Origin: Rhodococcus sp. HNM0563
Lineage (GTDB): Bacteria; Actinomycetota; Actinomycetes; Mycobacteriales; Mycobacteriaceae
Assembly: GCF_012726195.1 (NCBI RefSeq)
Contig: NZ_JAASAF010000004.1
Coordinates: 186,001-250,000 of the forward strand
Reading direction: 5' to 3'
Length of the DNA stretch: 64,000 nucleotides
The position numbers were made by a program, and so were the translations under genes. Below are positions 5,352-30,869 of the stretch, one piece after another (the first letter of the stretch is position 1; each line of letters starts with the position of its first letter). The notes under the pieces were generated by a model. The model saw only the letters and a program-made list of their open reading frames with translations, was not told the origin of the DNA and made no database searches.

Positions 5352-7922
5352 TCATTCTCGCACTTCGACGATGCCGTGCGCGCCGCGCTCGGCATCGACC
5401 ATCGAGTGCGACACGAACGGGTAGCGTCCCGGTTCGGGGAACTCGAGTTCGACGAATCCTCCCTGGGCCGGGAACAATCCGAGGGCCTGGCTTCCTCCCG
5501 TATCCGGCCGCAGGCGGTAGTCGCCCTCCGAGAAGACGGTGTCGAACTGCCCGCCCACGACATGGAACGACGTACCGCGGTTCGGTCCTGCGGCGAGCAC
5601 CCAGATCCGGACCCGCTCACCCACCCGGGCCTGCAGCGGCCTGTGGTCGTATTGGTTCGCATAGCCGTTGAACACCACCAGGTCAGGGTCCTCCGCAGTG
5701 ATCTTGTCGGAGTCGGCCTCGCCTCCTTCGGCTCCCAGATACAGCTCCGACTGCACCAGGACGTATTCACGGGCGACGGGCACGAGGTCCGGCGGGTCGA
5801 TGATGACCGCACCGAACATCCCGTTGGCGATATGCAGGGACATCGGCATGGTCGAGCAGTGATACAGCCAGATCCCAGAGCGGGTCGCGGTGAACCGGTA
5901 GACGAGCGACTCACCGGGTTCGATGGTGCGCATCGGTTCGTCCGGAGACAGCGAGCCCGCGTGGAAGTCGATCGAGTGGCCGATACTTCCGTCGTTGACG
6001 AGGGTGATCTCGAAGACGTCGCCGACGCGGCCGCGCAGGACAGGCCCGGGCGCGGTGCCACCGAATGTCCACAGGCGCTGCGTGATCCCGGGTGCGACCT
6101 CACGTTGCTCGTCGGTTGCAGCCAGGGTGATCCGGTGATCGGCAGTCGGCGCCGGCGCGACCGGATCGTGCGCGACGAATCCCGCCGCGGGGTCTGCACC
6201 GAGACTGCGCGACACGTCCGATGAGGTGAGAGACCCCGCTTCCGCCCCGGACCCGTGGTCGGTGTGTTCGAGGTCGTCGACCACACCGGTCGGCTCCACG
6301 GTGAGTGTCATTCCCATCTGGCGGTGCCCGGCGACCGAGCACCATCCGTCCATCTGCCCGCCGACGAGTCCGGCGTCGAGCGTCGCCGTCTCACCCGGAC
6401 CGATACGAGCGGTGCGGGTACCGTTGGCGAGAACCAGATCGTGACGATCGGTACCGGTATTCACCAGCGTGACCACCAGACGATCCCCCACAGGCACTTC
6501 GAGGACGTCGGGAACGAACCGCATACCCTCGATCTGCACCTCGACTTCGGTGGTGTACCCACTCGCCCTCACGTTCGAAGCATCGACGGTGGAGAGACCT
6601 GCGGCAGCCGGATCGGCCGCGATACCGGCTGCCGCGCCGAGGACGACGATGCCCAGCCCTGCTGCGGCGGACCGGATGCGCTTGCGTGCGGGAACAGGTT
6701 CGGGGCGGCCCGGTTTCGACGCTGTCCCACGCATGCGCCGGGCAACCAGAACCGCGCGCACGGCCAACGGCAGGAACGACGCGAACGCCACCAGGACGAG
6801 CACCGAACACAGCACTCGCACGAGGCTCGGTATCGGCAGTACACACACCAGCAGACCCGCATTGGCGACCGACAGGCGCCACGACGCGCCGCGCTCGAGT
6901 TCGGTCATCGCTCCCTGCACGGCAGCACGGCCGCCGATGACGACGGGAATGAGATACGTGAGGGCGCCGAGCAACACCTGGACGAGGAAACCGGCGAGCA
7001 GTGCCGCGGTCACGGACCCGGCCGCCGCGGCCGCTTCCAGTGGAGTCGATGCGGTCGCCAGTGCCACCGTGAGGTAGATCAGTGAACCGAGCAGCCACAC
7101 GATACCGGCGAGCACCGACAGCGTCGCGAAATCGGCGGGATGTTTTCGGCGGATCTCATCGAGGTGTGGTTCGAGGACATAGAGCGCGGCTGCGAGATAT
7201 CCGAGCGTTCCCGCTGCGGTGACGAGGGGAATACCCGCGAGGGCACCGGCGACTCCCACCGCGAGAGCGAGAATCAACGCCGGGAGTCCGCGTCGCGCTG
7301 CGGTCTCGACGCGCTGCGCCATCCGGGTTCGGAGCATCGTCGGCCACAGGGTCACGAGTGTGCCCAGCACCGTCAACCCCACCCAGCCCAGGACGTTGAC
7401 GGCTGCGTGCCCGAGCACGAGGCGCTCGTGAAGTTCCCCGGGCAGGCCGGAATTGGCCATGGCGATACCGAACCCCGCACCGACCGGCAACATCGTTGCT
7501 GCAGCGATGTAGTAGCGCACGGTGTGCCCGAACCGGGATGGCAGCGCCGCCCGCAGTCGCCGCAGCAGCGTAATGCCGTGCCATCCGGCAACACCGGCGA
7601 CGACGCACCCACCGACCAGTACGACGGGCCACCACCCGCCGACCATTCCTGCGACCAGGACCACAGCGCCGGTGTTGAACGCGATGAGTCGCGCCGTGTC
7701 GGGACGTCGAGCTCCCGTGGCGGAACGGCGGAGCAGGGCATCGGTGAAATGCCCGCTCCAGATCAGGATCGCGTTGCTCGCAGCACCTATACCGAGCAGA
7801 TGCACAAGGAGCCAACCGGATTGCGGAATCCACCGGTGGGCAACGGACACCACGACCAGCGCCGCGAACCACGCGGCAACCACCATCCCGGCCCGAAGAT
7901 GCCAGTTGCCCCGTTCGTTCAC
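5352..7922 (-). CDS. Membrane-anchored NirK-like multicopper protein
   Basis: An 856-residue fusion. Residues 1 to about 430 hold some ten hydrophobic helices with histidines such as 'WSGHF' and 'LVLGHAAVN'. Residues about 480-570 form a single cupredoxin ending 'GWCSVAGHRQMGM'. Residues 595-856 match two-domain copper nitrite reductase. Type 1 copper ligands read as His649, Cys689, His697 and Met702 ('HSIDFH', 'LYHCSTMPMSLH', 'NGM'). Type 2 ligands read as His654, His688 and His839 ('FVSHSM'). The catalytic Asp is present (Asp652), but the catalytic His of 'GGHGD' is Gln792 ('GGQFD'). The GTG start overlaps the upstream regulator stop by GTGA, so the two are translationally coupled. It could be a nitrite reductase or an oxidase. 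Confidence 0.85.
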   Translation of the reverse strand: MNERGNWHLRAGMVVAAWFAALVVVSVAHRWIPQSGWLLVHLLGIGAASNAILIWSGHFTDALLRRSATGARRPDTARLIAFNTGAVVLVAGMVGGWWPVVLVGGCVVAGVAGWHGITLLRRLRAALPSRFGHTVRYYIAAATMLPVGAGFGIAMANSGLPGELHERLVLGHAAVNVLGWVGLTVLGTLVTLWPTMLRTRMAQRVETAARRGLPALILALAVGVAGALAGIPLVTAAGTLGYLAAALYVLEPHLDEIRRKHPADFATLSVLAGIVWLLGSLIYLTVALATASTPLEAAAAAGSVTAALLAGFLVQVLLGALTYLIPVVIGGRAAVQGAMTELERGASWRLSVANAGLLVCVLPIPSLVRVLCSVLVLVAFASFLPLAVRAVLVARRMRGTASKPGRPEPVPARKRIRSAAAGLGIVVLGAAAGIAADPAAAGLSTVDASNVRASGYTTEVEVQIEGMRFVPDVLEVPVGDRLVVTLVNTGTDRHDLVLANGTRTARIGPGETATLDAGLVGGQMDGWCSVAGHRQMGMTLTVEPTGVVDDLEHTDHGSGAEAGSLTSSDVSRSLGADPAAGFVAHDPVAPAPTADHRITLAATDEQREVAPGITQRLWTFGGTAPGPVLRGRVGDVFEITLVNDGSIGHSIDFHAGSLSPDEPMRTIEPGESLVYRFTATRSGIWLYHCSTMPMSLHIANGMFGAVIIDPPDLVPVAREYVLVQSELYLGAEGGEADSDKITAEDPDLVVFNGYANQYDHRPLQARVGERVRIWVLAAGPNRGTSFHVVGGQFDTVFSEGDYRLRPDTGGSQALGLFPAQGGFVELEFPEPGRYPFVSHSMVDAERGAHGIVEVRE

Positions 7923-8641
7923 GATTCACCCCGCGGACAGCAGCACACTTCGGGAGTCGTGGGTTCGGGCATGAAGAGCCGACACCCGCCGGGTTCGACG
8001 AAGGGCAGGAGGTCGAGTCCGGGTCCGACCGGTGCGCCGACTTCTTCGAGTGCGCCCTCGACGATGCCGAGATGAACCTGGCACACGACGTTCGGGTAGC
8101 GTCGCGCGGCGTCGAGCAGGGGACACATCGGCAGTGCGACGCCGAGCGCGGGGCCACGGTCGTGGGGCGCGAATCCGAGCCGTGTGAGCAGGTCGAGGAC
8201 GAAGGCATGTGGATCTGCGGTGTCGTAGTCGGATTCGCGTGCGAGGTCGCATCCCCACTCTCGCCCCGCGGCGCGTGCGTCGCCTTCTGGATCGGCGCTG
8301 GTACGAGCGATGTGTCCGGCGAGGGCGGTCGCGAGTCCGGCGTAGTCGCGGCCGGCCAGGGTGGGGTCTGCGGCGGGCATGGGCCGATACACCTTGGCGG
8401 GGCGTCCGCGTCCGCGGGCCGGTTCGGTGGTGTGGTCGACGAGGCCGTGGCCGACCAGCGCGTCGAGGTGTTCGCGCACCGTGTTGGCGTGGAGACCGAG
8501 CCGCTCGGCGATGTCGTTGATGCGCGCCGGGCCATGGGCCCGGACATCGTCGAGGACGGTGATCCGCTGGGGCGACAGCGCGAGGTGCGACTCCGGGACC
8601 GGTGTCGCGCGCGGTCCGGGACGAAGTTCCCTATTTTCCAC
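7919..8641 (-). CDS. Winged-helix regulator with cysteine-rich C-terminus
   Basis: A protein of about 240 residues. The N-terminal winged helix 'ITVLDDVRAHGPARINDIAERLGLHANTVREHLDALVGHGLV' (two halves, before and after ERLGLH) resembles ArsR/SufR-type regulators. The C-terminal domain carries cysteines in 'ALPMCPLLDAA', 'VVCQVHLG', 'GGCRLFMP' and a final 'VCCCPRGES', a pattern compatible with an iron-sulfur or nitric-oxide sensor. The GTG at 8641 is taken as start because it is the last possible start before the helix-turn-helix. No ribosome site is seen, so it may be leaderless. An imperfect palindrome covers this start. It is coupled to the NirK-like gene and divergent from the hemerythrin gene. 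Confidence 0.75.
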   Translation of the reverse strand: MENRELRPGPRATPVPESHLALSPQRITVLDDVRAHGPARINDIAERLGLHANTVREHLDALVGHGLVDHTTEPARGRGRPAKVYRPMPAADPTLAGRDYAGLATALAGHIARTSADPEGDARAAGREWGCDLARESDYDTADPHAFVLDLLTRLGFAPHDRGPALGVALPMCPLLDAARRYPNVVCQVHLGIVEGALEEVGAPVGPGLDLLPFVEPGGCRLFMPEPTTPEVCCCPRGES

Positions 8642-8648
8642 GGAAATA
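8632..8648. promoter_or_regulatory. Imperfect palindrome, probable operator of the copper/hemerythrin module
   Basis: TATTTTCCACGGAAATA pairs at 6 of 8 positions around a central A. It overlaps the GTG of the regulator and lies about 70 bases before the divergent hemerythrin gene, in a locally AT-rich stretch unlike its surroundings. This is where an autoregulating divergent repressor would bind. The assignment to the adjacent regulator is inference. Confidence 0.5.
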
Positions 8649-8718
8649 ACTGTAGTAAATTGGTCCGCGAAAGGCCACCTTGCCGCGCACCACCGCGGCG
8701 CCACGGAAGGAGCGGTCC

Positions 8719-9501
8719 ATGAGTGCCGACCAGATCGTCGTTGCCACCACCGCGGAGGACGCGCGTGCCGTCGATGCCGTCAAGAGTCACCACAGTGAGC
8801 TCGCGGGACATATCGCGATCCTCAGTGAGGCATTGCTCGACGCTGCGGCCACCGGGAAGGATGTCGACGTGCATCGTCGTGCGATGGTCGACTTCCTCAC
8901 CGGTTCCTTGCTGCCACACGCCACCGCAGAAGAGCGCGTGCTCTACCCCGCGGCGGCCGGGCGCGGCGACGCGAAGTTGCTCGTCGAGTCCATGATCGCC
9001 GTGCACCGCCTTATTGCGGCTCTCGTCGACCGGATTGCGAAGGAACCCGATCCGGTCCGTGCGGCTGCAGCTGCCCACGCCTTACGAGTGGTGTTCGACC
9101 TGCACCTCGTCGACGAGAACGACCGAATCCTTCCGCTCGTCGCCGCAGATCCGGATGTCTCACTCGCCGGCATTCTGGAAGGTATGCACGAACTACTGGG
9201 CGGGGATGCGCAGCCGGAGCACGACGGCCACGTGTGCGCGTGCGGCGAACGCGACGAGCCCTCTCCGGTGCTCGATGTGCGGGAGATCCCGCACGCAATT
9301 CGCCACGCCACGGTGTTCGGTGCGTTCGATGCGGTGCCTGAACGCGGCACGCTCCTGCTCGTAGCGCCCCACGACCCGATCCCGCTGCTCCGCCAGCTCA
9401 CCGACCGGGTGGACGGGCGGCTCGGCGTCGACTACGAGGAGCGCGGACCGGAGGCGTGGCGCGTGCGCCTGACGCGAATCCCGGACACTACATCCGCGTG
9501 A
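8719..9501 (+). CDS. Hemerythrin-domain protein with C-terminal DUF2249
   Basis: A 260-residue protein. Residues about 20-170 form a hemerythrin-like four-helix bundle with candidate di-iron ligands in 'KSHHSELAGH', 'LLPHATAEERVLYP', 'IAVHRLIA' and 'DLHLVDENDRILP'. Residues about 190-258 match DUF2249 ('LDVREIPHAIRH', 'LVAPHDPIPLLRQL'). The domain pair occurs in proteins linked to nitric-oxide stress and iron-sulfur repair. GGAAGGAG ends 6 bases before the ATG, fixing the start. The gene faces away from the regulator/NirK-like pair and overlaps the 3' end of the following TetR gene by 14 bases. A role in handling NO or nitrite is inferred from the module. Confidence 0.85.
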   Translation: MSADQIVVATTAEDARAVDAVKSHHSELAGHIAILSEALLDAAATGKDVDVHRRAMVDFLTGSLLPHATAEERVLYPAAAGRGDAKLLVESMIAVHRLIAALVDRIAKEPDPVRAAAAAHALRVVFDLHLVDENDRILPLVAADPDVSLAGILEGMHELLGGDAQPEHDGHVCACGERDEPSPVLDVREIPHAIRHATVFGAFDAVPERGTLLLVAPHDPIPLLRQLTDRVDGRLGVDYEERGPEAWRVRLTRIPDTTSA

Positions 9502-10075
9502 GAAGCGCGACGAGGTCCTGGATCTCGTCGACAGTCGGTGTGGTGAGGTTGTCGCGACCGTAGACGAAGCCGATGCCCGCATACACCAGGGTGCCGGCTC
9601 GGATGCGCGCTTCGCGATCGTCGAAACCCAGTTCGTGAAATGCGTTCTCCACCACCGACATGATGCGCTGGTCGAGGGCGCGCACGGATTCCGCCACCTG
9701 CGGGTCGGTGCGCGCCCAGTCGCGGATCGCCACCTCGGTGGCCCAGGCTCGATCCTCGACGAGGGTCGCGCCCATGTGCGCGAGACGGTCGCGGACCGGC
9801 ATCTCTTCGATGCTCGTCAGTCCGCGCAGTGTGTCGTTGTCGTGTGAGCAGTAACGGGTGGCGATGGCATGCATCAGCTCGTCGATGTCGGCGAAGTGCC
9901 AGTAGAAGCTGCCCTTGGTGACGCCGAGTTCGGTGCACAGCCGTGCGATCTTCACCGCGTTGCGGCCCTCGGCGACAAGTAGTTGCAGACCCGCGTCGGT
10001 CCAGTCGTCGAGCGAGAGCCGCGGCCGGCGGGTGGAAGTGGGTTTCTTCTTCTCCGATTGCCGAATCACGACCAT
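9488..10075 (-). CDS. TetR-family regulator of the adjacent catabolic operon
   Basis: A 195-residue regulator. The N-terminal helix-turn-helix reads 'VKIARLCTELGVTKGSFYWHFADIDELMHAI', that is 'ARLCTELGVTKGSFYWHF' plus 'ADIDELMHAI', a classical TetR pattern. A charged lead 'RQSEKKKPTSTRRPR' precedes it. AAGGAG is well placed before the ATG. It diverges from the seven-gene operon starting at 10210, and the gap holds a near-perfect palindrome, so it most likely represses that operon and itself. The ligand-binding half shows no motif that would name the effector. Confidence 0.88.
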   Translation of the reverse strand: MVVIRQSEKKKPTSTRRPRLSLDDWTDAGLQLLVAEGRNAVKIARLCTELGVTKGSFYWHFADIDELMHAIATRYCSHDNDTLRGLTSIEEMPVRDRLAHMGATLVEDRAWATEVAIRDWARTDPQVAESVRALDQRIMSVVENAFHELGFDDREARIRAGTLVYAGIGFVYGRDNLTTPTVDEIQDLVALLTRM

Positions 10076-10130
10076 CTCTCCTTGTTGAGCGCTGATGCGA
10101 GGTTACACGTCGACGCCGCCGCTTGACCAA

Positions 10131-10145
10131 ACCATACCGTATGGT
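10131..10145. promoter_or_regulatory. Palindromic operator ACCATACCGTATGGT
   Basis: Seven-base perfect arms ACCATAC and GTATGGT flank one central base. The site lies between the divergent TetR gene and the laccase gene, 55 bases before the TetR ATG and 64 bases before the laccase ATG. Its length and symmetry fit a TetR-type dimer. It is the only strong palindrome in this gap. Confidence 0.7.
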
Positions 10146-10209
10146 ACTGTGAGGGTCGTCACGATCCGTCGTGTTCTTGTCAATCGGGGTGGGATCGACG
10201 CGAAAGCGC

Positions 10210-12012
10210 ATGATGAAAAAACTCAGTCGCAGACAACTTCTCGCGGGGGCGACGCTGGGCGTCGGTGGAGGAGCGTCGCTGCTGTTCGGCGCCGGCCGCG
10301 CGGTCGCGGACGGCCCGCGCATCTCGAGTCCGTTGCTCTTCCACTCGCCTCCGCTCGAACCGTTCGTCGACGAACTCCCCGTTCTGCCGCGCATCGATGC
10401 CGCGACGGTGACGATCGATGCGGTGAGCGCGACGCACAGCTTCCATCGCGACCTCGCTCCCGGCGCGACCCTCGCCTACGGCGACCGCACCTACCTCGGC
10501 CCGGTCATCGTTGCGCGGCAGGGGCGTGAAACCACGGTCGAGTACCGCAATCGGATCACGTCCCATCCGTTCGCAGCCGATTTCGACACGTCACTGCACG
10601 GACTCGGCGAGCACGACCGCACCGCGGTGCCCACCTCGATGCACCTGCACGGGGGAGTCACACCACCGGAATTCGACGGCCACCCGAAGCAGATCTCACG
10701 CCCGGGTCAGGGCTACACCTACCGTTTCCCGAACCGGCAGGAAGCCACGACGATGTGGTATCACGACCACGCGATGGCCGTGACCCGACTCAATGTCTAC
10801 GCCGGTCTCGCCGGGCTGTATCTGTTGCGGGACGACTACGACACCGGCGATCCCGGAAATCCACTCGGCCTTCCTACGGGCGCGTACGAACTCGACCTCG
10901 TGCTACAGGAAAAGATCGTGAACAGCGATGGCACACAGAGCATTCGCTCGACCCCCATTGTTCCGCAGGGGCGCTGGGAAGGCGGAGCCGTCGGTGACGT
11001 AGGCGTCGTCAACGGCAAGATCTGGCCGCAAGCCCGTGTCGACCGCGGCCTGTACCGGATGAGGTTGCTCAATGCGGCCTCGTTCAGCATCTGGGATCTG
11101 CACTTCTCCGACGGCATGCAATTCTGGGTGCTCGGGATGGAAGGCGGCCTGATGGACGCCCCCGTCCGCACCGATCGCGTGCGGCTCTCGCCTGGCGAAC
11201 GCGTCGACATCCTCGTCGACTTCGGTGCTCTCGAACCTGATTCGACGGTCGAATTGCGCAACAGCGAACCCGCCGCGCCGCAGGCCGCGCAGATCGGCGC
11301 GGTGCTGATGCCGGTGTTCATGCGCTTTCGCGTCGGGACCGAACGGGGATTCACCGGCCCCGTCCCGGAGACCCTGCGCGGCGGGCAGGGGCAACCCCCG
11401 GTGGTAGGCCCGATTCCGGTACCGCAGACGGTACGCAACGTGTCGCTGAGTCAGCCGTCGGATGTCCGGCTGCCTCCGTCGATCATGTCGCTCAACAATC
11501 TCACCTTCGACAGCGACGACATCGAAACACCGAGACAAGGTGCGATCGAGCAGTGGAACATCGTCAACGCCACCCCCGACCCACACCCGATCCATCTGCA
11601 TCTGGTCACCTTCCGTGTGCTCGGGCGGCAGGCGATCGACACCCTTGCGATGTGTGCGCGTCAGCCACAGGGCCCTCTGGGTATCAAGTGGACTCCGGAC
11701 GCCGACCCGTTCGTTGTCGAGCCGCTTCGCGGACCCGAGCCCTGGGAGACTGCTTTCAAGGACACAGTGATCTGCGACCCGAACTCCGTTACGCGCATCG
11801 TGGTGCGCTTCCCGACGGCCGACGAACTCGGCTTCGACCCTGACGCGACCTTCTCCCCGGCGGTGCACACGTTCGACGACCACGCGCATGTGATGCCGCA
11901 CCACGGTGACGACGATCTGCATGGCAGTGAACTCCAAGGCTATGTGTGGCACTGCCACATCCTCGACCATGAAGACCACGACATGATGCTCGAATATCGG
12001 ACGGTGCAATGA
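10210..12012 (+). CDS. Tat-exported multicopper oxidase (CotA/phenoxazinone-synthase-like laccase)
   Basis: About 600 residues. The N-terminus 'KKLSRRQLLAGATLGVGGG' is a twin-arginine signal, so the enzyme should be folded with copper and exported. Copper motifs are 'TSMHLHGGVTPPEFDG' near residue 142, 'TMWYHDHAM' near 178, 'HPIHLHLVTF' near 458, and 'VWHCHILDHEDHDMM' at the C-terminus, giving all type 2/3 ligands and the type 1 Cys-His. The spacing resembles CotA and bilirubin oxidase. Two adjacent ATGs (10210, 10213) are possible starts. A GTG at 10171 is unlikely because the signal peptide begins later. First gene of the operon; its stop overlaps the next start (ATGA). Confidence 0.9.
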   Translation: MMKKLSRRQLLAGATLGVGGGASLLFGAGRAVADGPRISSPLLFHSPPLEPFVDELPVLPRIDAATVTIDAVSATHSFHRDLAPGATLAYGDRTYLGPVIVARQGRETTVEYRNRITSHPFAADFDTSLHGLGEHDRTAVPTSMHLHGGVTPPEFDGHPKQISRPGQGYTYRFPNRQEATTMWYHDHAMAVTRLNVYAGLAGLYLLRDDYDTGDPGNPLGLPTGAYELDLVLQEKIVNSDGTQSIRSTPIVPQGRWEGGAVGDVGVVNGKIWPQARVDRGLYRMRLLNAASFSIWDLHFSDGMQFWVLGMEGGLMDAPVRTDRVRLSPGERVDILVDFGALEPDSTVELRNSEPAAPQAAQIGAVLMPVFMRFRVGTERGFTGPVPETLRGGQGQPPVVGPIPVPQTVRNVSLSQPSDVRLPPSIMSLNNLTFDSDDIETPRQGAIEQWNIVNATPDPHPIHLHLVTFRVLGRQAIDTLAMCARQPQGPLGIKWTPDADPFVVEPLRGPEPWETAFKDTVICDPNSVTRIVVRFPTADELGFDPDATFSPAVHTFDDHAHVMPHHGDDDLHGSELQGYVWHCHILDHEDHDMMLEYRTVQ

Positions 12013-13169
12013 CTTACGACGTAGCAGACCACTTCCAGCGCATTCCCTACGAACCCGCCTCCGACGGCCGCGTCGAAATGCACTCAGGACTGAGCAGGCA
12101 CTATCCGACCCTCCACGGAAATCTGGTTGCCGCACCGGGATATTCACGCAAAGTGGGCGTGATCATGTGTCATCCCGCCTCGAACTTCCTGAGCCACTTC
12201 CTGCTCCGCGCGATCGCCGGGGCAGGCATTCCGGCCATGGGCCTGAACACCCGGTACGCGTCGAACGAACCGGCTCTGATCATGGAGCGCGCGGCATTCG
12301 ATCTCGGCACTGGCGTGCGCTGGATGGCCGAGGAGCTGGGCTTCGAGAAGGTTGTGCTGCTCGGCTTCAGCGGTGGCGGCTCGCTGGCGTCGTTCTATCA
12401 GTCGCAGGCGGAGAACCCCACTGTCGTCGAGACACCCGCAGGCGACCCGGCGTCCTTCCCCGACGCGAAGCTGCGTCCCGCCGACGCGGTGATGCTCGTC
12501 GGCGCACACCCCGGACGCGCACGAGTCCTGAGGCACTGGATCGATGGCGCCGTCCTGGACGAGGCCGACCCATATCGCGTCGACCCGGAACTCGATCTCT
12601 ACGCATCCGGCCGAACCGCACCGCTCGACCGCGACTGGGTTACCCGCTACCGCGACGCGCAGCTCACCCGCATGCGCCGCATCGATGCGTGGGCCCTCGA
12701 CCAGCTCGACGAAATGAACCGCACCGGTGCATCCGACCGAGGATTCGTCGTGCACCGCACGGTCGCCGACCCCCGCTTCGTCGACCTCACCCTCGATCCC
12801 AGCGACCGCGAGCTCGGCAGCATGTACGGCGACCCGGCCGCCGCGAACACCGCAGCGGGTGGTCTCGCCAGATTCGTGACGGTGCGCAGCTGGCTCAGTA
12901 CGTGGAGCTCCGACCTCACCAACGCTGACGCCTTCGAAGACCTGTTGCACGTCGCCGCGCCGGCAATGGTGATGAGCCTGCTCGGCGACCAGGCTGCGTT
13001 CGCGGAGGATTCGCGCCTGATTCACCAGGCGCTGGGCGGCGAGACCGAACTGATCGAGATGCGCGGACTCAATCACTACCTGGTGGACCAGCCGGGTGGC
13101 CTCGACGACGTCGTCGGGCGTATCACCGGCTGGATCCGCCGCACCGTCCTCGAGGAGGCAACGCCATGA
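12009..13169 (+). CDS. Alpha/beta hydrolase, substrate unknown
   Basis: A 386-residue alpha/beta-hydrolase. The nucleophile elbow is 'VVLLGFSGGGSLASF' near residue 118, with 'GVIMCHPASNF' before it as the oxyanion strand. The likely acid/His pair lies in the last 60 residues ('LLGDQAAFAEDSR', 'RGLNHYLVDQPGG'). Start and stop both overlap neighbours by 4 bases (ATGA), so it is translated together with the laccase and the MpaB-type oxygenase. It may open an ester or lactone in the pathway, but the sequence does not name a substrate. Confidence 0.8.
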   Translation: MTYDVADHFQRIPYEPASDGRVEMHSGLSRHYPTLHGNLVAAPGYSRKVGVIMCHPASNFLSHFLLRAIAGAGIPAMGLNTRYASNEPALIMERAAFDLGTGVRWMAEELGFEKVVLLGFSGGGSLASFYQSQAENPTVVETPAGDPASFPDAKLRPADAVMLVGAHPGRARVLRHWIDGAVLDEADPYRVDPELDLYASGRTAPLDRDWVTRYRDAQLTRMRRIDAWALDQLDEMNRTGASDRGFVVHRTVADPRFVDLTLDPSDRELGSMYGDPAAANTAAGGLARFVTVRSWLSTWSSDLTNADAFEDLLHVAAPAMVMSLLGDQAAFAEDSRLIHQALGGETELIEMRGLNHYLVDQPGGLDDVVGRITGWIRRTVLEEATP

Positions 13170-14443
13170 CCGGGACACTCGGTGCTAAGGCGACGCCGCC
13201 GGCACAGGACCGCTGTCCGAGTCGATTTCCCTACTGGCAGGCCGTCGAGCGCCCAGGCGTCGCGCGGGTCCGGAACCTCATCCGCAAGGTCACAGGTTTC
13301 GACATCCTGCACGACGACGAGACTGCCCGTGCCCTGTGCAACGATCTGTTCAGCGGCGACCCCACCGCGGAACGTTTCGTCGGCGAGGTCTACCACGGTG
13401 ACCTCGGACCGGTGAAAACCCGGGAACTGCTCGACACCGCCCTCACCGACGGAATCGACAGCGTGCCGGACGCACCCGAGGCAATGAAGGCGCTGTTCGA
13501 GGAGTTCGAGATCGTCCCCGATTGGGTGCAGCCCGAACTTGTCGAAGAAGGCGCGAAGATCTGGCGACGCTGGGGCACCATGCTGTTCAGTTTCGCGGGT
13601 GCCGAAACCCTCGAGATCTACACGGAATCCGCGGTGGCGACCCCGTTGTCGTTGGCCGGTGGGTATGCCGGAGACAACGCGCTGCGTCGCTACCTCGAAA
13701 CCTGCCGGTTCTGGTGCGATGTCTCCGAACCCGGTGCTCTGCTCACCCCGGGATCGACCGGACGCGCCACCGCCCTCAAGGTCCGCGTGATGCATGTATC
13801 GGTACGCGACCGGGTCGCGAAGCATCCCGAATGGGACGAACAGAAGTGGGGACTGCCGATCAGCCAGACCTACATGCTCCTCACCCTGATCGCAGGCAGT
13901 CTCACCCCTGGCCTTGCCCTGTGGACTCTCGGGTACCAAACCACACCGCGGGAGATCCGCGCTCTCATCCACTTCCAGAAGTACATGGGATACCTGCTCG
14001 GTGTCCGCATCGACTGGTATCCGGAGACGATCGGCGACAGCATCCGCACGCTGCTCACCACCGTGGTGTCCCGGTCGTACGACTCGGGCGAGCACGGCAA
14101 GGAATTGATCGAGTCGTACCCGAAGGCGTTCGCGCCCCGCGACGGCCAGCTAGGATTCGAGCGGCTACGGGCGGCATACAACTTCCGGATCAACGCGGTC
14201 TACTCGGCAATGTTCATGGGGCCGGGCACCCGTCGCAAATACTCGATGCCGACCGTCATCCCCTGGATGATCATCCCGATCGTCCGATTCCCGTTCATCA
14301 CCGCGATGGAACTCGCCCGTCGTCTTCCCGGGATCTCCGGAGTGCACGAAAAGATCATGGTCGCTCACCGTGAGAACTGGTACCGAGCCCAAATGAACGG
14401 ACGAGAAGCACAATTCGACGCAAGCGGCGCCCTGCGGCGCTGA
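13166..14443 (+). CDS. Oxygenase MpaB family protein (DUF2236, Lcp-related)
   Basis: A 425-residue protein of the DUF2236 family, which includes latex-clearing protein and fungal MpaB. The typical central segment is 'GRATALKVRVMHVSVRDRV' near residue 202, matching the Arg/Lys-x-Arg-x-Met-His core that holds heme b in Lcp, followed by 'LPISQTYMLLTLIAGS'. Family members cleave carbon-carbon double bonds or act on terpenoid side chains. There is no export signal, so it is probably cytoplasmic or membrane-associated. It starts inside the stop of the hydrolase gene. This gene suggests the operon acts on a prenylated or unsaturated substrate, which is inference. Confidence 0.82.
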   Translation: MTGTLGAKATPPAQDRCPSRFPYWQAVERPGVARVRNLIRKVTGFDILHDDETARALCNDLFSGDPTAERFVGEVYHGDLGPVKTRELLDTALTDGIDSVPDAPEAMKALFEEFEIVPDWVQPELVEEGAKIWRRWGTMLFSFAGAETLEIYTESAVATPLSLAGGYAGDNALRRYLETCRFWCDVSEPGALLTPGSTGRATALKVRVMHVSVRDRVAKHPEWDEQKWGLPISQTYMLLTLIAGSLTPGLALWTLGYQTTPREIRALIHFQKYMGYLLGVRIDWYPETIGDSIRTLLTTVVSRSYDSGEHGKELIESYPKAFAPRDGQLGFERLRAAYNFRINAVYSAMFMGPGTRRKYSMPTVIPWMIIPIVRFPFITAMELARRLPGISGVHEKIMVAHRENWYRAQMNGREAQFDASGALRR

Positions 14444-14467
14444 ACCCCCACCTACACCGGAGGAACT

Positions 14468-15523
14468 ATGGCGGCACTGCAGATCGTCGAGGCATGGAAT
14501 GGCCCCGGCCGGCGCGACGGTGACATCACGCAAGTCGTCCCGAGCGACAACGGTGCTCATCCGTCGACCGACAAGCACGCATTCGAACACTGGTACTTCG
14601 ACGCCCATCTCGACGACGGCCGCATCGTCGTCGCGATGCTGCAGACGCGAGAGTTGTTGCACCGCAAGCCCGGCGTCGAGATCCACGTCTACAGCGCCGA
14701 CGGCGAGCGCCGCGAGGCCATCAAGCAGTACTCCGACGCAGAGCTCACCGTGTCGGCGGAGCGGTGCGACGCCCAGGTCGGCCGCAGCTTCGCCAAGGTG
14801 ACCGGCGAGGAAGACGGGTTACCCGTCTACCACGTGTCGGTGGCAGAAGACGACCTCGCGTTCGATCTCACGTTCACCGCCGAAGTGCCGCCGTGGATGC
14901 CGGGACGCGGGCAGACCAGCTACAACGATCGCGAGTTCTTCGCGTGGGTGGTCGGCGCACCCCGAGCACGTGTCGCAGGAACGGTGACCGTCGACGGGGT
15001 CACCACAGAGGTCGCCGGGCGTGGTTACCACGACCACAACTGGGGCGTCGGCGACATGAAACGCATCATCTCGAAGTGGTACTGGGGCCGTCTCTACACC
15101 GACGATTTCTCGCTGGTCTACGCGATGGTGCAGACGCAGAAGAAATACGGCGAGCACTGGTCACAGCCGGTGATGATCGCTATGGGACGTGAGGTGGTGC
15201 TCAGCAACGGCGAGGTCGAGATGACGGAGGGCCCGGCGGTCTACGACGCCGTCGCCGATCGCACCTACCCGTCGTGGTTACGGATACAGGTTGCCGATTC
15301 CCTGGATCTGACATTGACGGTGCGCGAAATCGTCCACGCTCACAATCTCCTCGAAGACATCCCGATCGCGTCGAGCAAGCTCGTCAAGCCGATCGTGAAC
15401 TGGCTGGTCGGCCGGCCGGGCTACTTCCGTTTCCGGTCCGATTTCACGATGACCGTGACCATCGACGGTGAACAATACGATCGTTCGGGGACGACATTGC
15501 ACGAGATGGTCGCCCTGACGTGA
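14468..15523 (+). CDS. Lipocalin-like AttH/CrtC-family protein
   Basis: A 351-residue protein with two lipocalin-like halves as in AttH and carotenoid 1,2-hydratase (CrtC). Marks are '[20 protein letters not shown]' near residue 39 and '[14 protein letters not shown]' near 182, with '[19 protein letters not shown]' near 201. CrtC adds water to a terminal isoprenoid double bond, and other family members act on terpenoids and polyketides. AGGAACT lies before the ATG. The gene sits 24 bases behind the MpaB-type oxygenase and overlaps the homogentisate-dioxygenase-like gene by 4 bases. Hydratase or isomerase activity on a prenyl-type substrate is plausible but unproven. Confidence 0.75.
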
Positions 15524-16822
15524 CGGTGGACCTCGAGTACCTGAACGGGTTCGGTAACGAGCACCACAGCGAGGCGGTCGCGGGTGCGCTGCCGTGGGGG
15601 CAGAACTCGCCGCAGCGAGCCCCGTACGGGCTGTACGCCGAGCAGCATTCTGCGACCGCATTCACCGAACCGCGTGAAATCAACACGAGGAGTTGGACGT
15701 ACCGGATCATGCCGTCGGCCGCGCACCGGCCGTTCGAACGCACCGACGATCGTGGATGGGTGTCTGCACCATCGACGGCGGCGGTACTGACGCCGAACAG
15801 GCTGCGGTGGGATCCGCAGCCCGCGTCTGCGGCCGGGGTGGATTTCATGCGACGGCATCACGACCTACGCCGTGAACGGCGACGTACACGCCCGTACGGG
15901 TATCGGCATACACATGTATGCGGCGTCGGCATCCATGACCGACCGGTACTTCGTCGACGCCGACGGTGAACTGCTGTTCGTCCCGCAAGCGGGCGCTCTG
16001 CTTCTGTGCACCGAGTTCGGGAGGCTCGCGGTCTCGCCGGGGGAGATCGCCGTCGTCGGACGGGGTGTGCGGTTCCGGGTGGAACTGCTCGACGTCGCAG
16101 CAACCGGGTACGTCTGTGAAAACTACGGAGCCGCCTACCGACTCCCGGAACTCGGTCCGATCGGCGCCAACGGTCTCGCTCATGCGCGCGACTTCCTCTA
16201 TCCCACAGCGTGGTACGAGGATCGTGTCGGGCCGGTCGAGCTGGTTCAGAAGTTCGGCGGTCACCTGTGGGCCACCGAACTCGACCATTCGCCGCTCGAC
16301 GTCGTCGCGTGGCACGGGACGCACGGTGCATACAAGTACGATCTGTCGCGATTCAACGCGATGACCACCGCAGGCTGGGATCATCCCGACCCGTCGATAT
16401 TCACCGTCCTCACCTCGCCGACCTCGGTCGCAGGGCAGGCCAACGTCGACTTCTGTGTTTTTCCCGACCGCTGGGTGGTCGGCGAACACACCTTCCGGCC
16501 ACCGCATTTCCATCGCAACGTGATGACCGAGTTCATGGGTCTGATCCGTGGGCGACACGATTCGAAAGCCGAAGGGTTCGTGCCGGGAGGGGCATCGCTG
16601 CACAACCAGTGGGGTGCGCACGGGCCCGACCGGGAGACCTTCGATCTGGCGTCCGCCGCGGAGCTTTCACCGATGAAGCTCGAGAACACGATGTCGTTCA
16701 TGTTCGAAACCCGACTCGCCCTCGCCGTCACCGAAAGGGCGCTGTCTGCATCCCATCGTCAACCCGACTACGACTCGTCGTGGGCCGGACTGGAACGTCG
16801 CTTCACCTCACCCTCGAAATAG
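15520..16822 (+). pseudogene. hmgA: Homogentisate 1,2-dioxygenase-like gene interrupted by a frameshift
   Basis: Two frames together encode a full-length homogentisate dioxygenase (about 433 residues once joined; human HGD has 445). The first frame, from GTG 15520, gives '[14 protein letters not shown]' to 'AAGVDFM'. Reading resumes one base later as '[17 protein letters not shown]', so one extra base near 15850 (atgCgacggc) breaks the gene. Downstream metal and active-site segments are intact: '[18 protein letters not shown]' (His and Glu ligands) and '[12 protein letters not shown]' (His ligand). It is either a true pseudogene or a sequencing error. The start overlaps the previous stop, and the ALDH follows after 9 bases. 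Confidence 0.85.
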
Positions 16823-16831
16823 GAGCATTCC

Positions 16832-18316
16832 ATGACCGACACTGCAGCTCCCGTCACTCCAGCTCCGGTTGTTCTGCCGGAACCGCTGCTGCGCATCGGC
16901 GGCCGGGCGGTCTCCGCTCGGTCCGGAGCGCAGTTCTCGTCGATCAACCCGGCGAACGAAGAAGTTGTCGCCGAGATCGCATGCGGCGGCACCGACGACA
17001 TCGATGCCGCCGTCGATGCTGCCCGCGACACGTTCGACTCGGGTGCGTGGTCGCGGATGGCGGGCGCCGAGCGTGGCAGGATCCTCTCCCGCGCAGCCGA
17101 TCTCATCGAGCAGCACGCGCCGGAGCTGTCGGCGCTCGAGACCGCGGAGATGGGCAAGCTATACGCCGATACCGTCGCAGGCGATATTCCCGCCGCCGCC
17201 GCCTCGTTCCGGCACTACGCGGGCTGGGCCGACAAGATCGCCGGTGAGGCGATGATCCTCCCTGATGTCGGACCGCAACACCGCTTCGGCTTCACCCTCC
17301 GCCAGCCACTCGGGGTGGTCGGTGCGATCACGCCGTGGAACAACCCGACCGTGGTGGCGGCGTGGAAGATCGCACCGGCACTCGCGGCGGGCTGTTCCGT
17401 CGTGGTCAAGCCCGCCGAGGATGCTTCCCTCGCGGTGCTGAAGCTGGCCGACCTGCTCGCCGAAGCAGGAGTGCCCGATGGGGCGTTCAACGTCGTTCCC
17501 GGCCTGGGGCCGGAGGCCGGAGCTGCGCTTGCTGCGCACCAGGGCATCGACAAGATCACCTTCACCGGCAGCCCCGCCGTCGGCAAGACCATCACCTCGC
17601 TTGCGGGCGAGAAGTTCCGCAAGGTCACCCTGGAACTGGGCGGAAAGGCCCCGCAGCTGATCTTCCCCGACGCCGACCTCGAAGCCTCGCTGCCGTGGAT
17701 CGCGATGGGCAATTTCTACCACCAGGGGCAGGTGTGCGCCGCGGGCACGCGCGTGATCGTGCACGAATCCGTCGCCGACCAGGTCATCGAGGGCCTCGTC
17801 GAATTCGCACGTGCCGCAGTGATCGGCGACCCGTTCGACGCCGGCACCACCCAGGGCACGATCGTCAACCGCAAGCAGCTCGACCGCATCCTCGGGTACA
17901 TCGAGAAGGGCAAGAGTGAAGGCGCCGATCTGCTCACCGGCGGCGCACGCGTGGGAGAGAAGGGTTTCTTCGTCCAGCCCACAGTGTTCCGCGGCACCAA
18001 CGATCTGACGATCGCGCGAGAGGAGATCTTCGGACCCGTCGCCACCGTCATCACCTTCAAGACCACGGAGGAAGCCGTCCGCCTCGCGAACGCGACGCAA
18101 TACGGTCTCAATGCCTTCATCTTCAGCCAGAGTCTCTCGACGGTGCACAGCGTGATTCCGCAGCTGAGGGTCGGCACCGTGTGGGTCAATGGCTGGGGTG
18201 TACCCGACCCGGCACTACCCTGGGGTGGTCGCGACGCGAGCGGCATCGGGCGCGAGCTCGGGCGCAGCGGCCTCGAGGCGTTCACCGAGGAGAAGACGGT
18301 TCACCTCGGCTACTGA
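16832..18316 (+). CDS. Aldehyde dehydrogenase
   Basis: A 494-residue NAD(P)-dependent aldehyde dehydrogenase of the usual length. It has 'GAITPWNNPTVVAAWKIAPAL' (split as GAITPWNNP and WKIAPAL) near residue 165, the coenzyme lysine in 'VVVKPAEDASL', the catalytic Glu in 'VTLELGGKAPQ' near 269, and the nucleophile Cys in 'HQGQVCAAGTR' near 302. AGGAGC precedes the ATG. It lies between the ring-cleavage gene and the CoA transferase, so an aldehyde product of the pathway would be oxidised to an acid here and then activated with CoA. The substrate is unknown. Confidence 0.92.
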   Translation: MTDTAAPVTPAPVVLPEPLLRIGGRAVSARSGAQFSSINPANEEVVAEIACGGTDDIDAAVDAARDTFDSGAWSRMAGAERGRILSRAADLIEQHAPELSALETAEMGKLYADTVAGDIPAAAASFRHYAGWADKIAGEAMILPDVGPQHRFGFTLRQPLGVVGAITPWNNPTVVAAWKIAPALAAGCSVVVKPAEDASLAVLKLADLLAEAGVPDGAFNVVPGLGPEAGAALAAHQGIDKITFTGSPAVGKTITSLAGEKFRKVTLELGGKAPQLIFPDADLEASLPWIAMGNFYHQGQVCAAGTRVIVHESVADQVIEGLVEFARAAVIGDPFDAGTTQGTIVNRKQLDRILGYIEKGKSEGADLLTGGARVGEKGFFVQPTVFRGTNDLTIAREEIFGPVATVITFKTTEEAVRLANATQYGLNAFIFSQSLSTVHSVIPQLRVGTVWVNGWGVPDPALPWGGRDASGIGRELGRSGLEAFTEEKTVHLGY

Positions 18317-18337
18317 CCGGAAAGAAATGGACACTCA

Positions 18338-19585
18338 GTGACGACGGATACCGCAGGCACACCGACCGAGCCGACAGAGCAGACCGCAGCCGGTGCGCTC
18401 GGAGAGATCAGGGTACTCGAACTGGGCACACTGATCGCCGGTCCGTTCGCCGGGCGGTTGCTCGGCGATATGGGTGCCGACGTCATCAAGATCGAGGATC
18501 CGAAGCGTCCCGACCCGCTGCGCACCTGGGGGCAGGGGGAGCGTGATGGCCACCGTTTCTTCTGGACCGTGCACGCGCGCAACAAACGGTGCATCACCCT
18601 CGATCTGCGGTCGGCCGACGGTCAGGACCTCTTCCGCCGGCTGGTCGCCGAATCCGACGTCGTCGTCGAGAACTTCCGGCCCGGCACACTCGAGAAATGG
18701 GGCCTCGGCTACGACGTGCTCTCCGAGGTCAACCCGGGCATCGTGCTTGCGCGCGTGTCCGGATACGGACAGACCGGCCCCAGAGCCGGGCACGCAGGAT
18801 ACGCCTCGGTCGCGGAGGCGGAAAGCGGTCTCCGGCACCTGAACGGCTACCCCGGGCAGGCGCCGCCGCGTCTCGCGCTGTCACTCGGCGACACCCTCGG
18901 CGGCATGTTCGCCGTCCAAGGAGTGCTTGCTGCGCTGCTGAGCCGCGAGCGGACGGGACGTGGGCAGATCGTCGACGTGGCGCTGACCGAAGCGTGCCTG
19001 GCCGTCCAGGAGTCGGTCATTCCCGACTACGACGCTGCCGGGGTGGTTCGCGGCCCGTCCGGTACGCGGCTCGAGGGCATCGCGCCGTCGAATCTGTATC
19101 GCACCGCCGACGACATGTGGATTGTCATCGCGGCCAATCAGGACACCGTCTTCCGGCGCCTGTGCGTGGCAATGGATCGCCCGGAACTGGCCGACGATGC
19201 GAAGTTCGCCGACCACCTTGCGCGTGGTGTCAATCAGGACGACCTCGACGATCTCATCGGCGCGTGGGCCGCGACATGGACCCTCACCGACCTGCTCGAA
19301 CACCTGTCGGCCTCGGGTGTCGTTGCAGGGCCCGTCAATACGGTGGCCGAAGTGGTCGCCGACGACCAGTTCCAGGCGCGCGACATGCTGGTCTCCCATC
19401 ATGACGAACGCACCGGCCTCGATGTTCTCGGACCGGGGGTGGTGCCACGTTTGGCCGACACCCCCGGTTCGGTGCGTCGTGCAGGCCCGCCGATCGCCGG
19501 CTACGACAACGCCGCTGTCTACGGCGACCTGCTGGGCGTGAACGAAGGCGAGCGTGCCGATCTGCGCGAGCGCGGCGTTATCTGA
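18338..19585 (+). CDS. CaiB/BaiF (class III) CoA transferase
   Basis: A 415-residue family III CoA transferase. Marks are 'VLELGTLIAGPFAGRLLGDMGADVIKIE' (read as VLELGTLIAGPFAGRLLGD followed by MGADVIKIE) at residues 27-55, 'RNKRCITLDLRS' near 88, and 'DVVVENFRPGTLEKWGLGY' near 108. The family aspartate that forms the aspartyl-CoA intermediate should lie near 'ALSLGDTLGGM'. The start is a GTG. It is the last gene of the operon at 10210-19585 and would put CoA on the acid made by the neighbouring ALDH. No acyl-CoA dehydrogenase or thiolase follows directly. Confidence 0.92.
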   Translation: MTTDTAGTPTEPTEQTAAGALGEIRVLELGTLIAGPFAGRLLGDMGADVIKIEDPKRPDPLRTWGQGERDGHRFFWTVHARNKRCITLDLRSADGQDLFRRLVAESDVVVENFRPGTLEKWGLGYDVLSEVNPGIVLARVSGYGQTGPRAGHAGYASVAEAESGLRHLNGYPGQAPPRLALSLGDTLGGMFAVQGVLAALLSRERTGRGQIVDVALTEACLAVQESVIPDYDAAGVVRGPSGTRLEGIAPSNLYRTADDMWIVIAANQDTVFRRLCVAMDRPELADDAKFADHLARGVNQDDLDDLIGAWAATWTLTDLLEHLSASGVVAGPVNTVAEVVADDQFQARDMLVSHHDERTGLDVLGPGVVPRLADTPGSVRRAGPPIAGYDNAAVYGDLLGVNEGERADLRERGVI

Positions 19586-19602
19586 GCGCAGTCGGTTCTC
19601 GT

Positions 19603-20996
19603 TCAGCCGGGCAGTCCGATCGTCTTGATTTCGAGGTACTCTTCGAAACCCTGCGTGCCGTTGCGTCGGCCGAGACCACTCTGTTTGGTACCGCCGAACG
19701 GGCTCGTGATGCCGAAGAAGGACTTTCCGTTGACGGTCACACTGCCGGTGCGCATCCGCATCGCGACGGCCAGCGCGCGATCGTTGTCGGCGCTGCTCAC
19801 CTCACCGGACAAGCCGTAGATCGAATTATTCGCGATCGCAATGGCGTCGTCCTCGGTGTCGTAGGCGGTGCCGGTCAGTACCGGGCCGAAGATCTCTTCC
19901 TTCGCCACGCGGGAATCGGGATCGACGTCGCCCAGCAGAGTCGGTTGGGTGTAGTAACCCGTCGGCAGGTCCTCCGGAATGCCGCCGCCGGTGATGAGGG
20001 TCGCGCCCGATTCGACACCGTCGGTGATCAGGCCGAGCACCTTCTGACGCTGGGTCTCGCTGATCTGCGGGCCCTGCATGTTGCCGGGAACCCACGGATC
20101 GCCCACCGGGAAGGATTCCATCGTGGCCTTCAGCACCGCGACGCCTTCGTCGTAGCGGCTGCGTGGTAACAGGATCCGGCTGGGCAGAATGCAACTCTGC
20201 CCCGACATCACGCACGCCATCACCGCCGCCATCGGGAGGGACGCACCGAGGTCGGCGTCGTCGAGCACGATATGAGCGGATTTGCCGCCGAGTTCGAGCA
20301 TCGTCTTCTTACCGTGGGTGCGGCGGCGGCCAGAATGGCTCGTCCGGTCGCTGTCGAACCGGTGAAGGTGATCATGTCGACCCTCGGATCCGACGACAGT
20401 GCCGCGCCCACTTCGTTGGCGTTCGACAGTACGACGTTGAAGACCCCGGCCGGAATATCGGTTTCTTCGGCGACGATGCGTCCCAGTTCGCTCCCGGACC
20501 ACGGGGTGAGCTGCGCGGGCTTGAGGACGACGGTGTTTCCGGCCATCAGCGCCGGCATCGTCTCGGCGACATTGAGATAGAACGGCACGTTCCAGGGCGT
20601 GATCGCGCCGACGACCCCGACCGGATCGAAGTGCAGGAGTCTGCGCGCCGGACCCATCACCGTGGGGTGCATTCCCGTGTCCTGCAGATAGTCGAAGCTC
20701 CGGCCGTATTCGGCCCAGTGCTTCACCTCGTCGATCGGCTCCTCGATCTGACTTCTGGTCACGCCGATGGGGCAGCCGACCTCGGTCACCACTATCCGGC
20801 GCAGACGCTCCATGTTTCTGGTCATCGCTTCGTGGAGCTGGCTGAGGCAGTGGTAGCGGAATTCGACGTCGCGTGACCAGTCGGTGGTGTCGAATGCGCG
20901 GCGGGCGGCGCCGACGGCGCGTTTGTTGTGGAGTAGCCAATTCGAGTGTGCAGTCGTTGTCGCGACACGCCGGGCGGTTTCGGAAAAACTGCACAC
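19603..20996 (-). pseudogene. Decayed aldehyde dehydrogenase (frameshift and lost N-terminus)
   Basis: An aldehyde dehydrogenase split over two frames. The upstream part reads 'RAVGAARRAFDTTDWSRD' to 'TGRAILAAAAPTV'. The downstream part resumes as 'KKTMLELGGKSAHIVLDDAD', so one base is missing at 20310/20311 between the two. The catalytic Glu ('LELGG') and Cys ('SGQSCILPSR') are still present. Homology begins only at about 20921: the usual first 45 or so residues, including the first Rossmann strands, are gone and replaced by unrelated sequence that contains a perfect 13-base inverted repeat. The gene was probably divergent from the next gene. Two independent defects argue for real decay. Confidence 0.78.
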
Positions 20997-21000
20997 TCGA
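20942..21000. repeat. Perfect 13-bp inverted repeat with 33-bp spacer
   Basis: TCGAGTGTGCAGT at 20942-20954 is exactly reversed and complemented as ACTGCACACTCGA at 20988-21000. It sits at the place where the aldehyde dehydrogenase loses its N-terminus. There is no T-tract, so it is not a normal terminator. It could be the ends of a tiny mobile remnant, a stem-loop, or a protein-binding site. Confidence 0.6.
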
Positions 21001-21030
21001 CATGTTCATTCGGGCACGCTGGCCCTATGG

Positions 21031-22210: not shown

Positions 22211-22219
22211 AGCTTCGCT

Positions 22220-22261
22220 GGTGCGTGGTTCTGGTAGTGGGAACTACCGAAACCGCGCACC
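22220..22261. terminator. Hairpin between convergent genes
   Basis: A 19-base arm (GGTGCGTGGTTCTGGTAGT) pairs at about 16 of 19 positions with 22243-22261 across a GGGA tetraloop. It lies 9 bases behind the stop of the NMO-like gene and 24 bases from the end of convergent fadD17. There is no U-tract, which is common for actinobacterial terminators. It could serve both strands. Confidence 0.55.
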
Positions 22262-22285
22262 GGCAGTGATGTAGGTGTCCTATGT

Positions 22286-28053: not shown

Positions 28054-28818
28054 GTGGTAGACCTCTTCGAAGTCCCCCTTCGCGCCGTCGGTGGGCTCTT
28101 CGCCATGACGGGCGAGACTGCGCGTGCCGCGTTCGTCCGTCCGTTCCAGCGACGCGAATTCATCGACCAGGCCTGGTTCGTCGCCAGGGTCTCCCTGATG
28201 CCGACCATCCTCGTCGCGGTTCCGTTCACCGTGCTCGTCAGCTTCACACTGAACATCCTGCTGAGAGAGATCGGCGCGGCCGACCTCAGCGGAGCGGGAG
28301 CCGCACTGGGTGCCGTCACCCAGGTCGGACCCATGGTCACCGTGCTCATCGTCGCCGGCGCAGGCGCCACCGCGATCTGTGCCGACCTGGCCGCACGGAC
28401 CATTCGCGAGGAGATCGACGCGATGAAGGTGCTCGGTATCAATCCGATCCAGCGTCTCGTCGTACCGCGGGTCCTCGCGTCCACCGTCGTCGCGCTACTG
28501 CTCAACGGACTTGTCTGCACTATCGGCATCCTCGGTGGATTCGGATTCTCGGTCTTCTTCCAAGGCGTGAACCCGGGCGCCTTCATCAACGGCATCACAC
28601 TGCTCACCGGATTCGGGGAACTCATGATCTCCCAGGTCAAGGCCGGGCTGTTCGGCATGATCGCCGGACTCGTCGCCTCATACCTCGGTCTGAACGTGCG
28701 AGGCGGCGCCAAGAGCGTCGGCGACGCTGTCAACCAGACGGTCGTATTCGCCTTCATGGCGTTGTTCGTCGTCAACCTCCTCGTCACCGCGGTCGGCATC
28801 AAGCTGACCGGCGGATGA
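28054..28818 (+). CDS. yrbE4A: Mce4 permease subunit YrbE4A
   Basis: A 254-residue MlaE/YrbE-type integral membrane protein. It has an amphipathic N-terminus, then helices such as 'FVARVSLMPTILVAVPFTVLV' (split here as FVARVSLMPTIL and VAVPFTVLV) and the conserved loop 'EEIDAMKVLGINPIQRLVVPR' near residue 122, written as EEIDAMKVLGI and NPIQRLVVPR, that contacts the ATPase. It is the first half of the permease dimer of the Mce4 sterol importer. The start is GTG with a G-rich ribosome site. The MceG ATPase is not in the window. Confidence 0.93.
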   Translation: MVDLFEVPLRAVGGLFAMTGETARAAFVRPFQRREFIDQAWFVARVSLMPTILVAVPFTVLVSFTLNILLREIGAADLSGAGAALGAVTQVGPMVTVLIVAGAGATAICADLAARTIREEIDAMKVLGINPIQRLVVPRVLASTVVALLLNGLVCTIGILGGFGFSVFFQGVNPGAFINGITLLTGFGELMISQVKAGLFGMIAGLVASYLGLNVRGGAKSVGDAVNQTVVFAFMALFVVNLLVTAVGIKLTGG

Positions 28819-28832
28819 GGAGGGAGAACACG

Positions 28833-29681: not shown

Positions 29682-29688
29682 GGCGCGC

Positions 29689-30867: not shown

Positions 30868-30869
30868 CC

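Follow-up and report, generated by a model that had tools for sequence, protein, structure and literature searches.

A conserved TetR-linked gene block of Rhodococcus and relatives, predicted to act in the catabolism of a hydrophobic hydroquinone

A 64,000-nucleotide stretch of Rhodococcus sp. HNM0563 (contig NZ_JAASAF010000004.1, positions 186,001 to 250,000; here called the window) contains a gene for a TetR-family regulator and, divergent from it on the + strand, genes for a multicopper oxidase (MCO), a putative alpha/beta hydrolase (ABH), an MpaB/Lcp-type oxygenase, a CrtC-like protein, a homogentisate dioxygenase (HGD) paralogue, an aldehyde dehydrogenase (ALDH) and a CaiB-type CoA transferase, in that order (Table 1). 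The genome (G000, window C33:186001-250000) comprises 5.54 Mb in 53 contigs, and the closest named relative for the gene set is Rhodococcus sp. SMB37 (CrtC protein 95%). Within the block, genes overlap by 4 bases at 12009-12012, 13166-13169 and 15520-15523, and the other spacings are gaps of 9-24 bases. The 15-base palindrome ACCATACCGTATGGT lies between the hexamers of a promoter-like pair, so that bound TetR would block the promoter; the pair was not flagged by the consensus promoter scan. One perfect copy of ACCATACCGTATGGT was found in the genome, with three further places at 2 mismatches (two places for the reversed-pattern control), and a site of this type also precedes the cluster in the other genus loci examined. 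The original prediction described seven genes behind one palindromic operator. The layout, the overlaps and gaps and the single operator stand, and a scan of 9480-19700 gave no sigma-70-type promoter within the block (1.1 expected from shuffling; a weak test in actinobacteria). HGD, in contrast to that description, is frame-broken and not one open gene.

Table 1. Positions of the cluster and related features in the window
Feature	Position	Strand	Basis or remark
TetR-family regulator	9488-10075	-	PF00440 1.1e-9; orthologue in 39/55 other loci
Site of extra hydrolase-like gene in relatives, absent here	10076-10130	.	ORFs of relatives
Hexamer pair TTGACC-16-TACTGT	10123-10150	.	Read from the sequence; spacer overlapped by ACCATACCGTATGGT
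Palindromic operator (15 bases) ACCATACCGTATGGT	10131-10145	.	Read from the sequence; predicted TetR site
MCO, CotA-like	10213-12012	+	PF07731/PF07732; spore coat protein A 4.2e-76
ABH, unnamed family	12009-13169	+	Candidate C-C hydrolase or esterase
MpaB/Lcp-type haem oxygenase, predicted C=C cleavage	13166-14443	+	PF09995 9.5e-15
CrtC/AttH-like lipocalin-type protein	14468-15523	+	PF07143 1.2e-7; candidate hydratase, dehydratase or cyclase-type
HGD paralogue, N-terminal part	15520-15969	+	Frame 1; TIGR01015 positions 2-113
HGD paralogue, C-terminal part with iron-ligand positions	15872-16822	+	Frame 2; TIGR01015 positions 110-429, 470 bits
ALDH	16832-18316	+	PF00171; closest named family phenylacetaldehyde dehydrogenase StyD
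CaiB-type (family III) CoA transferase	18338-19585	+	PF02515 2.8e-122
Junction lacking the cluster-linked Mce operon of relatives such as G017	22211-22285	.	Gene-order comparison with G017
Another Mce operon	28081-38087	+	AMP-ligase, acyl-CoA dehydrogenase and short-chain dehydrogenase genes upstream

The MCO open reading frame (ORF) is open from 10171, the ATG at 10213 agrees with homologues, and a Tat-type signal was read by eye. CotA similarity and the copper-binding motifs HLHG, WYHDH, HPIHLH and HCHILDH place the protein with CotA-type laccases. For the ABH label given in the original prediction, no Pfam or NCBIfam match was obtained at limits of 0.001 and 0.01; the name is supported by weak Abhydrolase_1 matches (E up to 1) and by unchanged S121, D327 and H356, each in 26/26 family members. 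MpaB was assigned as a predicted MpaB/Lcp haem oxygenase by its MPAB_Lcp_cat domain and by haem-site residues R174, T179 and H210 (53/53 sequences), which were matched by eye on an Lcp alignment to R164, T168 and H198. The CrtC-like protein scored 23.1 bits against NF045922 (CrtC carotenoid 1,2-hydratase, cut-off 400) and 40.5 bits against Rv3169_fam (cut-off 150), leaving membership in the wider CrtC domain. A lipocalin-type tocopherol cyclase was considered for this protein, but no such Pfam match was found. A plasmid search with the CrtC protein returned 10 records, each <60% identity. The best match of ALDH was StyD NF045736, at 607.6 bits (R. qingshengii 612.3) under a cut-off of 800, and the closest family of CaiB was succinate-glutarate CoA-transferase NF052585, at 262.5 bits under a cut-off of 750.

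In the window the two parts of HGD were placed in different frames by Pfam and NCBIfam, and the gene falls under the TIGR01015 cut-off. HGD is intact in Rhodococcus sp. SMB37 and other close relatives (for example L034:11053-12354). To see whether the HGD break reflects general assembly error, ~1.6-35 kb of the window was compared with nine loci of relatives; HGD was the sole split true gene there, and the other rows marked MULTI came from antisense ORFs, over-called ORFs or neighbouring genes joined together. A second split gene of the window, an ALDH-like gene in two frames (19603-21009, - strand), lies between CaiB and the NMO gene and was absent from that place in the relatives used for comparison, G017 and G011 among them.

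The CrtC protein was matched in 12/18 genomes of the genus and 68/401 of the family (E 1e-60), and in 4/394 of the class (E 1e-50), all four belonging to the same family. Alongside the window, the examination covered the loci of 55 out of 67 further family genomes with CrtC, and L094 (G009, without CrtC) was excluded. The count may miss genes split over frames or cut at a contig end, and its Mce column is blind to paralogues: L028 (G012) is scored, yet has the other Mce operon alone. With these limits, CrtC was accompanied in the 55 loci by MpaB (54), TetR (39), ALDH (30), ABH (28), HGD (28), a Mce gene (26), MCO (25), CaiB (22), the hydrolase-like gene (13) and an HMG-CoA lyase gene (4; NF004283 over cut-off in the one tested). 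ABH and HGD occurred together in 27 loci and were both missing from 26; in the one locus with ABH alone, the gene counted is a 43% relative at another place of that locus, and the one locus with HGD alone has part of an ABH. The block recurs as a conserved set in Rhodococcus, Speluncibacter and other Mycobacteriaceae, with MpaB and CrtC as the core and ABH, HGD and ALDH as a second module that comes and goes together. One conserved TetR-linked catabolic unit, as first proposed, is supported; the seven-gene extent applies here, and many relatives have a larger unit, with a Mce operon alongside and, in some, the hydrolase-like gene or HMG-CoA lyase. The expectation that the genes stay together in relatives failed, with 27/55 loci lacking HGD and two transcription units in R. 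qingshengii. Since the genes come apart in this way, ring opening is read as an optional second half added to the MpaB-CrtC core.

Several loci depart from the common arrangement. L041 and L057 (R. globerulus type) hold MpaB, CrtC, two MCO genes, CaiB and an HMG-CoA-lyase-like gene, with no HGD, ABH or ALDH, a variant that may represent just the part of the pathway acting on the side chain. Decayed clusters were seen in L036 (R. phenolicus), where ABH, HGD and ALDH are remnants, and in L094 (G009), where MCO, ABH, MpaB and CrtC are gone and HGD and ALDH are damaged. The hydrolase-like gene beside TetR (opposite strand, ~280-310 aa) is present in 6/11 other genus loci; its product gave no Pfam or NCBIfam match, and its secretion and fold were read by eye. 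Loss of this gene was considered as a decay sign and dropped, as 5/11 other genus loci also lack it, four of them with full-length HGD.

The reduced loci bear on a possible role in detoxification or remodelling, in which the TetR-MpaB-CrtC core, with MCO, inactivates a toxic quinone or terpenoid and full catabolism was added in some lineages. Minimal TetR-MpaB-CrtC loci in many genomes and the presence of just one perfect operator in the genome of the window would fit such a role; roughly half of the loci, however, have HGD and ALDH, and a Mce operon lies nearby in 26/55, which looks more like food use. We regard detoxification as improbable.

Membership of the HGD family was established on the intact orthologues, which are full-length and over the TIGR01015 cut-off in 10/18 genus genomes. 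A second, divergent HGD match was present in 18/18 (51-63 bits in 17; 35.7 bits, partial, in G005). In the window's genome the divergent gene lies on contig C7 with a MarR-type regulator gene and a fumarylacetoacetase (FAH) gene, HPPD being on the same contig, and the layout is that of the homogentisate locus hmgR-hmgA-hmgB of R. ruber Chol-4 as described in PMC6498646. FAH over cut-off in this genome was found on C7 and not on C33, the contig of the cluster. In a tree and alignment of 26 cluster HGDs and 20 canonical actinobacterial HGDs (extracted via tblastn), the cluster proteins formed one clade apart from the canonical ones, with support 95/97. Iron ligands His331, Glu337 and His367 were kept in 26/26 cluster and 20/20 canonical proteins, and position 346 was His in all 26 of the former and Tyr in all 20 of the latter. 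In Pseudomonas HGD, homogentisate makes a loop close over the active site by contacting Tyr346 (PMC6337169). That the cluster gene is an ordinary tyrosine/homogentisate HmgA amid unrelated neighbours would agree with the retained iron ligands and the scores of the intact orthologues, but is very improbable given the FAH-linked divergent gene, the separate clade with His346 and the position of the cluster HGD next to CrtC in 10/10 over-cut-off cases; it was rejected on both the Tyr346 and the FAH-locus tests. On sequence grounds the cluster HGD is not the tyrosine-pathway enzyme, because it forms a separate clade and a divergent HGD-FAH locus exists elsewhere in the genome, and the distinction drawn in the original prediction is upheld.

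Clustering of neighbouring ORFs turned up MCE-family proteins and MlaE/YrbE permeases (Pfam/NCBIfam names) at the loci with a nearby Mce operon. In L059 and L043 (Speluncibacter), yrbE-mce shares the strand of CaiB and HMG-CoA lyase and comes directly after them or after a small gap. In R. qingshengii L042, yrbE comes after MCO; in this locus MCO is preceded by a one-mismatch operator and ABH by an exact one. L061 has a one-mismatch operator between its last mce gene and ABH, and L060 an exact one 36 bases upstream of yrbE. In a single-base shuffle control (eight loci, five each), no operator site with <=1 mismatch was found. Operator-like sites were also seen ~2 kb before yrbE at L112:11509 (1 mismatch), L113:9359 (0) and L103:15055 (2), where additional genes of the unit perhaps follow them. 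In the window the NMO gene ends at 22210, 75 bases from the AMP-ligase gene (22286-23905), and in G017 the Mce genes lie between the counterparts of these two. The Mce operon present elsewhere in the window (Table 1) was ruled out as the cluster importer, its YrbE-A being 92-95% identical to that of the second Mce operon of G017/G011.

Cluster-type MceF was found in the same 10 genus genomes that have HGD over the cut-off, and the presence of full-length HGD and MceF agrees in 18/18 genomes, 10 with both and 8 without such a pair. MceF of the 10 genomes is 67-100% identical to G017 MceF, in two overlapping pieces in the poor draft G005. Among the eight others, the window's genome has the split HGD and no close match to cluster-linked MceF (best 45%). 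G009 lacks the N-terminal part of HGD and matched MceF in two stretches (329/403 residues), neither mceA nor mceB being found in the part of its locus examined. G012 has HGD remnants and a best MceF of 45% or less, and G002, G003, G010, G014 and G015 have the divergent HGD only and best MceF matches of 46-49%. The chance of an exact 10-with-10 match is 1 in 43758 (hand arithmetic assuming independence, overstated through kinship). With HGD split and cluster-type MceF absent, import and ring cleavage have probably been lost in the window strain and its pathway is probably decaying.

The unit is proposed to serve the catabolism of a hydrophobic hydroquinone whose side chain is unsaturated and probably isoprenoid, or of a chromanol that is opened to such a hydroquinone; we put this forward tentatively, as a close call. 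The prenylated hydroquinone of the original prediction stays a hypothesis in this reading. That the genes form one functional unit for a hydrophobic substrate is likely, and the Mce neighbour strengthens the hydrophobic nature of that substrate; that aromatic ring opening is the second half of the unit is somewhat probable. MpaB-family enzymes cleave C=C bonds, the fungal substrate being a farnesylated phthalide (PMC12724181). In the order of steps considered for a prenyl-hydroquinone, which is doubtful as a whole, the exported MCO would oxidise a phenol or chromanol outside the cell and, in relatives, the dedicated Mce complex would import the substrate. The CrtC-like protein might add or remove water at a chain double bond or act in ring opening, the least sure step. 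MpaB would cut the first chain C=C to give an arylacetaldehyde and a methyl ketone, and the StyD-like ALDH would turn the aldehyde into a 2,5-dihydroxyphenylacetate-type (homogentisate-like) acid. The HGD paralogue would then open the ring of this acid, and its change of Tyr346 to His would suit a ring that is bulkier or carries substituents. ABH may replace fumarylacetoacetase by hydrolysing the diketone product; it tracks HGD, and its Ser, Asp and His are invariant. CaiB, with HMG-CoA lyase in four loci, would feed the (branched) acid into central metabolism. More doubtful still is a specific version in which plant prenylquinones or tocochromanols (plastoquinone, vitamin E) would be taken up through the unit's own Mce, MpaB would remove the whole chain to leave (methylated) homogentisate, and the His346 HGD subfamily would open the ring.

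A hydrophobic aromatic substrate without a prenyl chain (an alkenyl hydroquinone, a lignan-like compound or another terpenoid aromatic) is possible, if unlikely. The target of MpaB and CrtC would then be a double bond outside any prenyl group, and the HGD paralogue would take a different hydroquinone, an arrangement that fits all the sequence evidence equally, with His346 speaking against plain homogentisate. MpaB-family enzymes take various alkenes, including nitrile rubber, according to PMC12724181. Against it, the order MpaB, StyD-like ALDH and HGD suits an arylacetic acid formed from the first prenyl double bond, an argument from chemistry and not from data. Sorgoleone was also considered as a substrate and set aside, a literature search giving no paper that combined all terms sought. 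No described pathway with the gene set was found in a full-text literature search, which is weak evidence of absence as most subscription journals lay outside its coverage.

Several observations weigh against the proposal of a catabolic unit for a hydrophobic hydroquinone. The genus genomes are related, so the 18/18 agreement does not represent independent cases; outside the genus, L040 and L089 have Mce without HGD, and in L069 and L086 the stretch seen holds HGD and lacks Mce. Many of the loci without HGD retain just TetR-MpaB-CrtC, many minimal loci are without an operator site, and R. globerulus-type loci hold MCO, CaiB and HMG-CoA lyase without the second module. An operator lies <=400 bases before yrbE in 2/17 yrbE hits, as an exact site in one and with 2 mismatches in the other. 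Because few yrbE genes have one nearby, the tie between Mce and the cluster rests on adjacency elsewhere, and our confidence in a single functional unit was lowered slightly. At the enzyme level, Lys167 of Lcp, a reported haem contact, is Glu178 in MpaB (53/53), and ALDH and CaiB are under every named cut-off listed. The HGD break itself could be a sequencing error.

If the proposed catabolic role is correct, it would supply a substrate class for an orphan Mce transporter, the actinobacterial MpaB family and the CrtC-like family, define a second HGD subfamily that annotation models score as hmgA, and offer a testable view of possible recycling of prenylquinones or vitamin E by soil bacteria. 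The strain resembles a half-broken mutant of natural origin, and the existence of intact relatives makes comparison easy. On the other side of TetR, the genes at 5352-8704 (-) and 8680-9501 (+) include those for a large cupredoxin/multicopper-oxidase protein, a helix-turn-helix regulator and a DUF2249-hemerythrin protein, which we take to be possibly nitric-oxide or nitrite related.

Among known systems is the Mce4 sterol-import regulon of actinobacteria. With Mce4 sterol import, as in R. jostii RHA1 (PMC6498646), the cluster would share a Mce importer tied genetically to hydrophobic-substrate catabolism, and it differs in its Mce paralogue, operator and enzymes, import of the pathway substrate by the cluster Mce being a prediction. 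With the rubber oxygenase Lcp (5o1l/5o1m), MpaB shares the catalytic domain and three haem-site residues at a similarity of ~35 bits; Lcp acts on polyisoprene and has Lys167, whereas the cluster MpaB has Glu there. The MpaB step of mycophenolic acid synthesis and bacterial Nro1 share the haem oxygenase family and C=C cleavage, predicted here, and the fungal substrate is a prenylated phenol (PMC12724181); the cluster MpaB, in contrast, is encoded together with ring-opening genes in an operon of catabolic appearance. With hmgR-hmgA-hmgB of R. ruber Chol-4 (PMC6498646) the cluster shares the use, predicted here, of an HGD-family dioxygenase to cleave the ring. Compared with that locus, the cluster has no FAH match and an ABH that tracks HGD instead, its HGD has His346, and it adds MpaB, CrtC, MCO and, in relatives, Mce.

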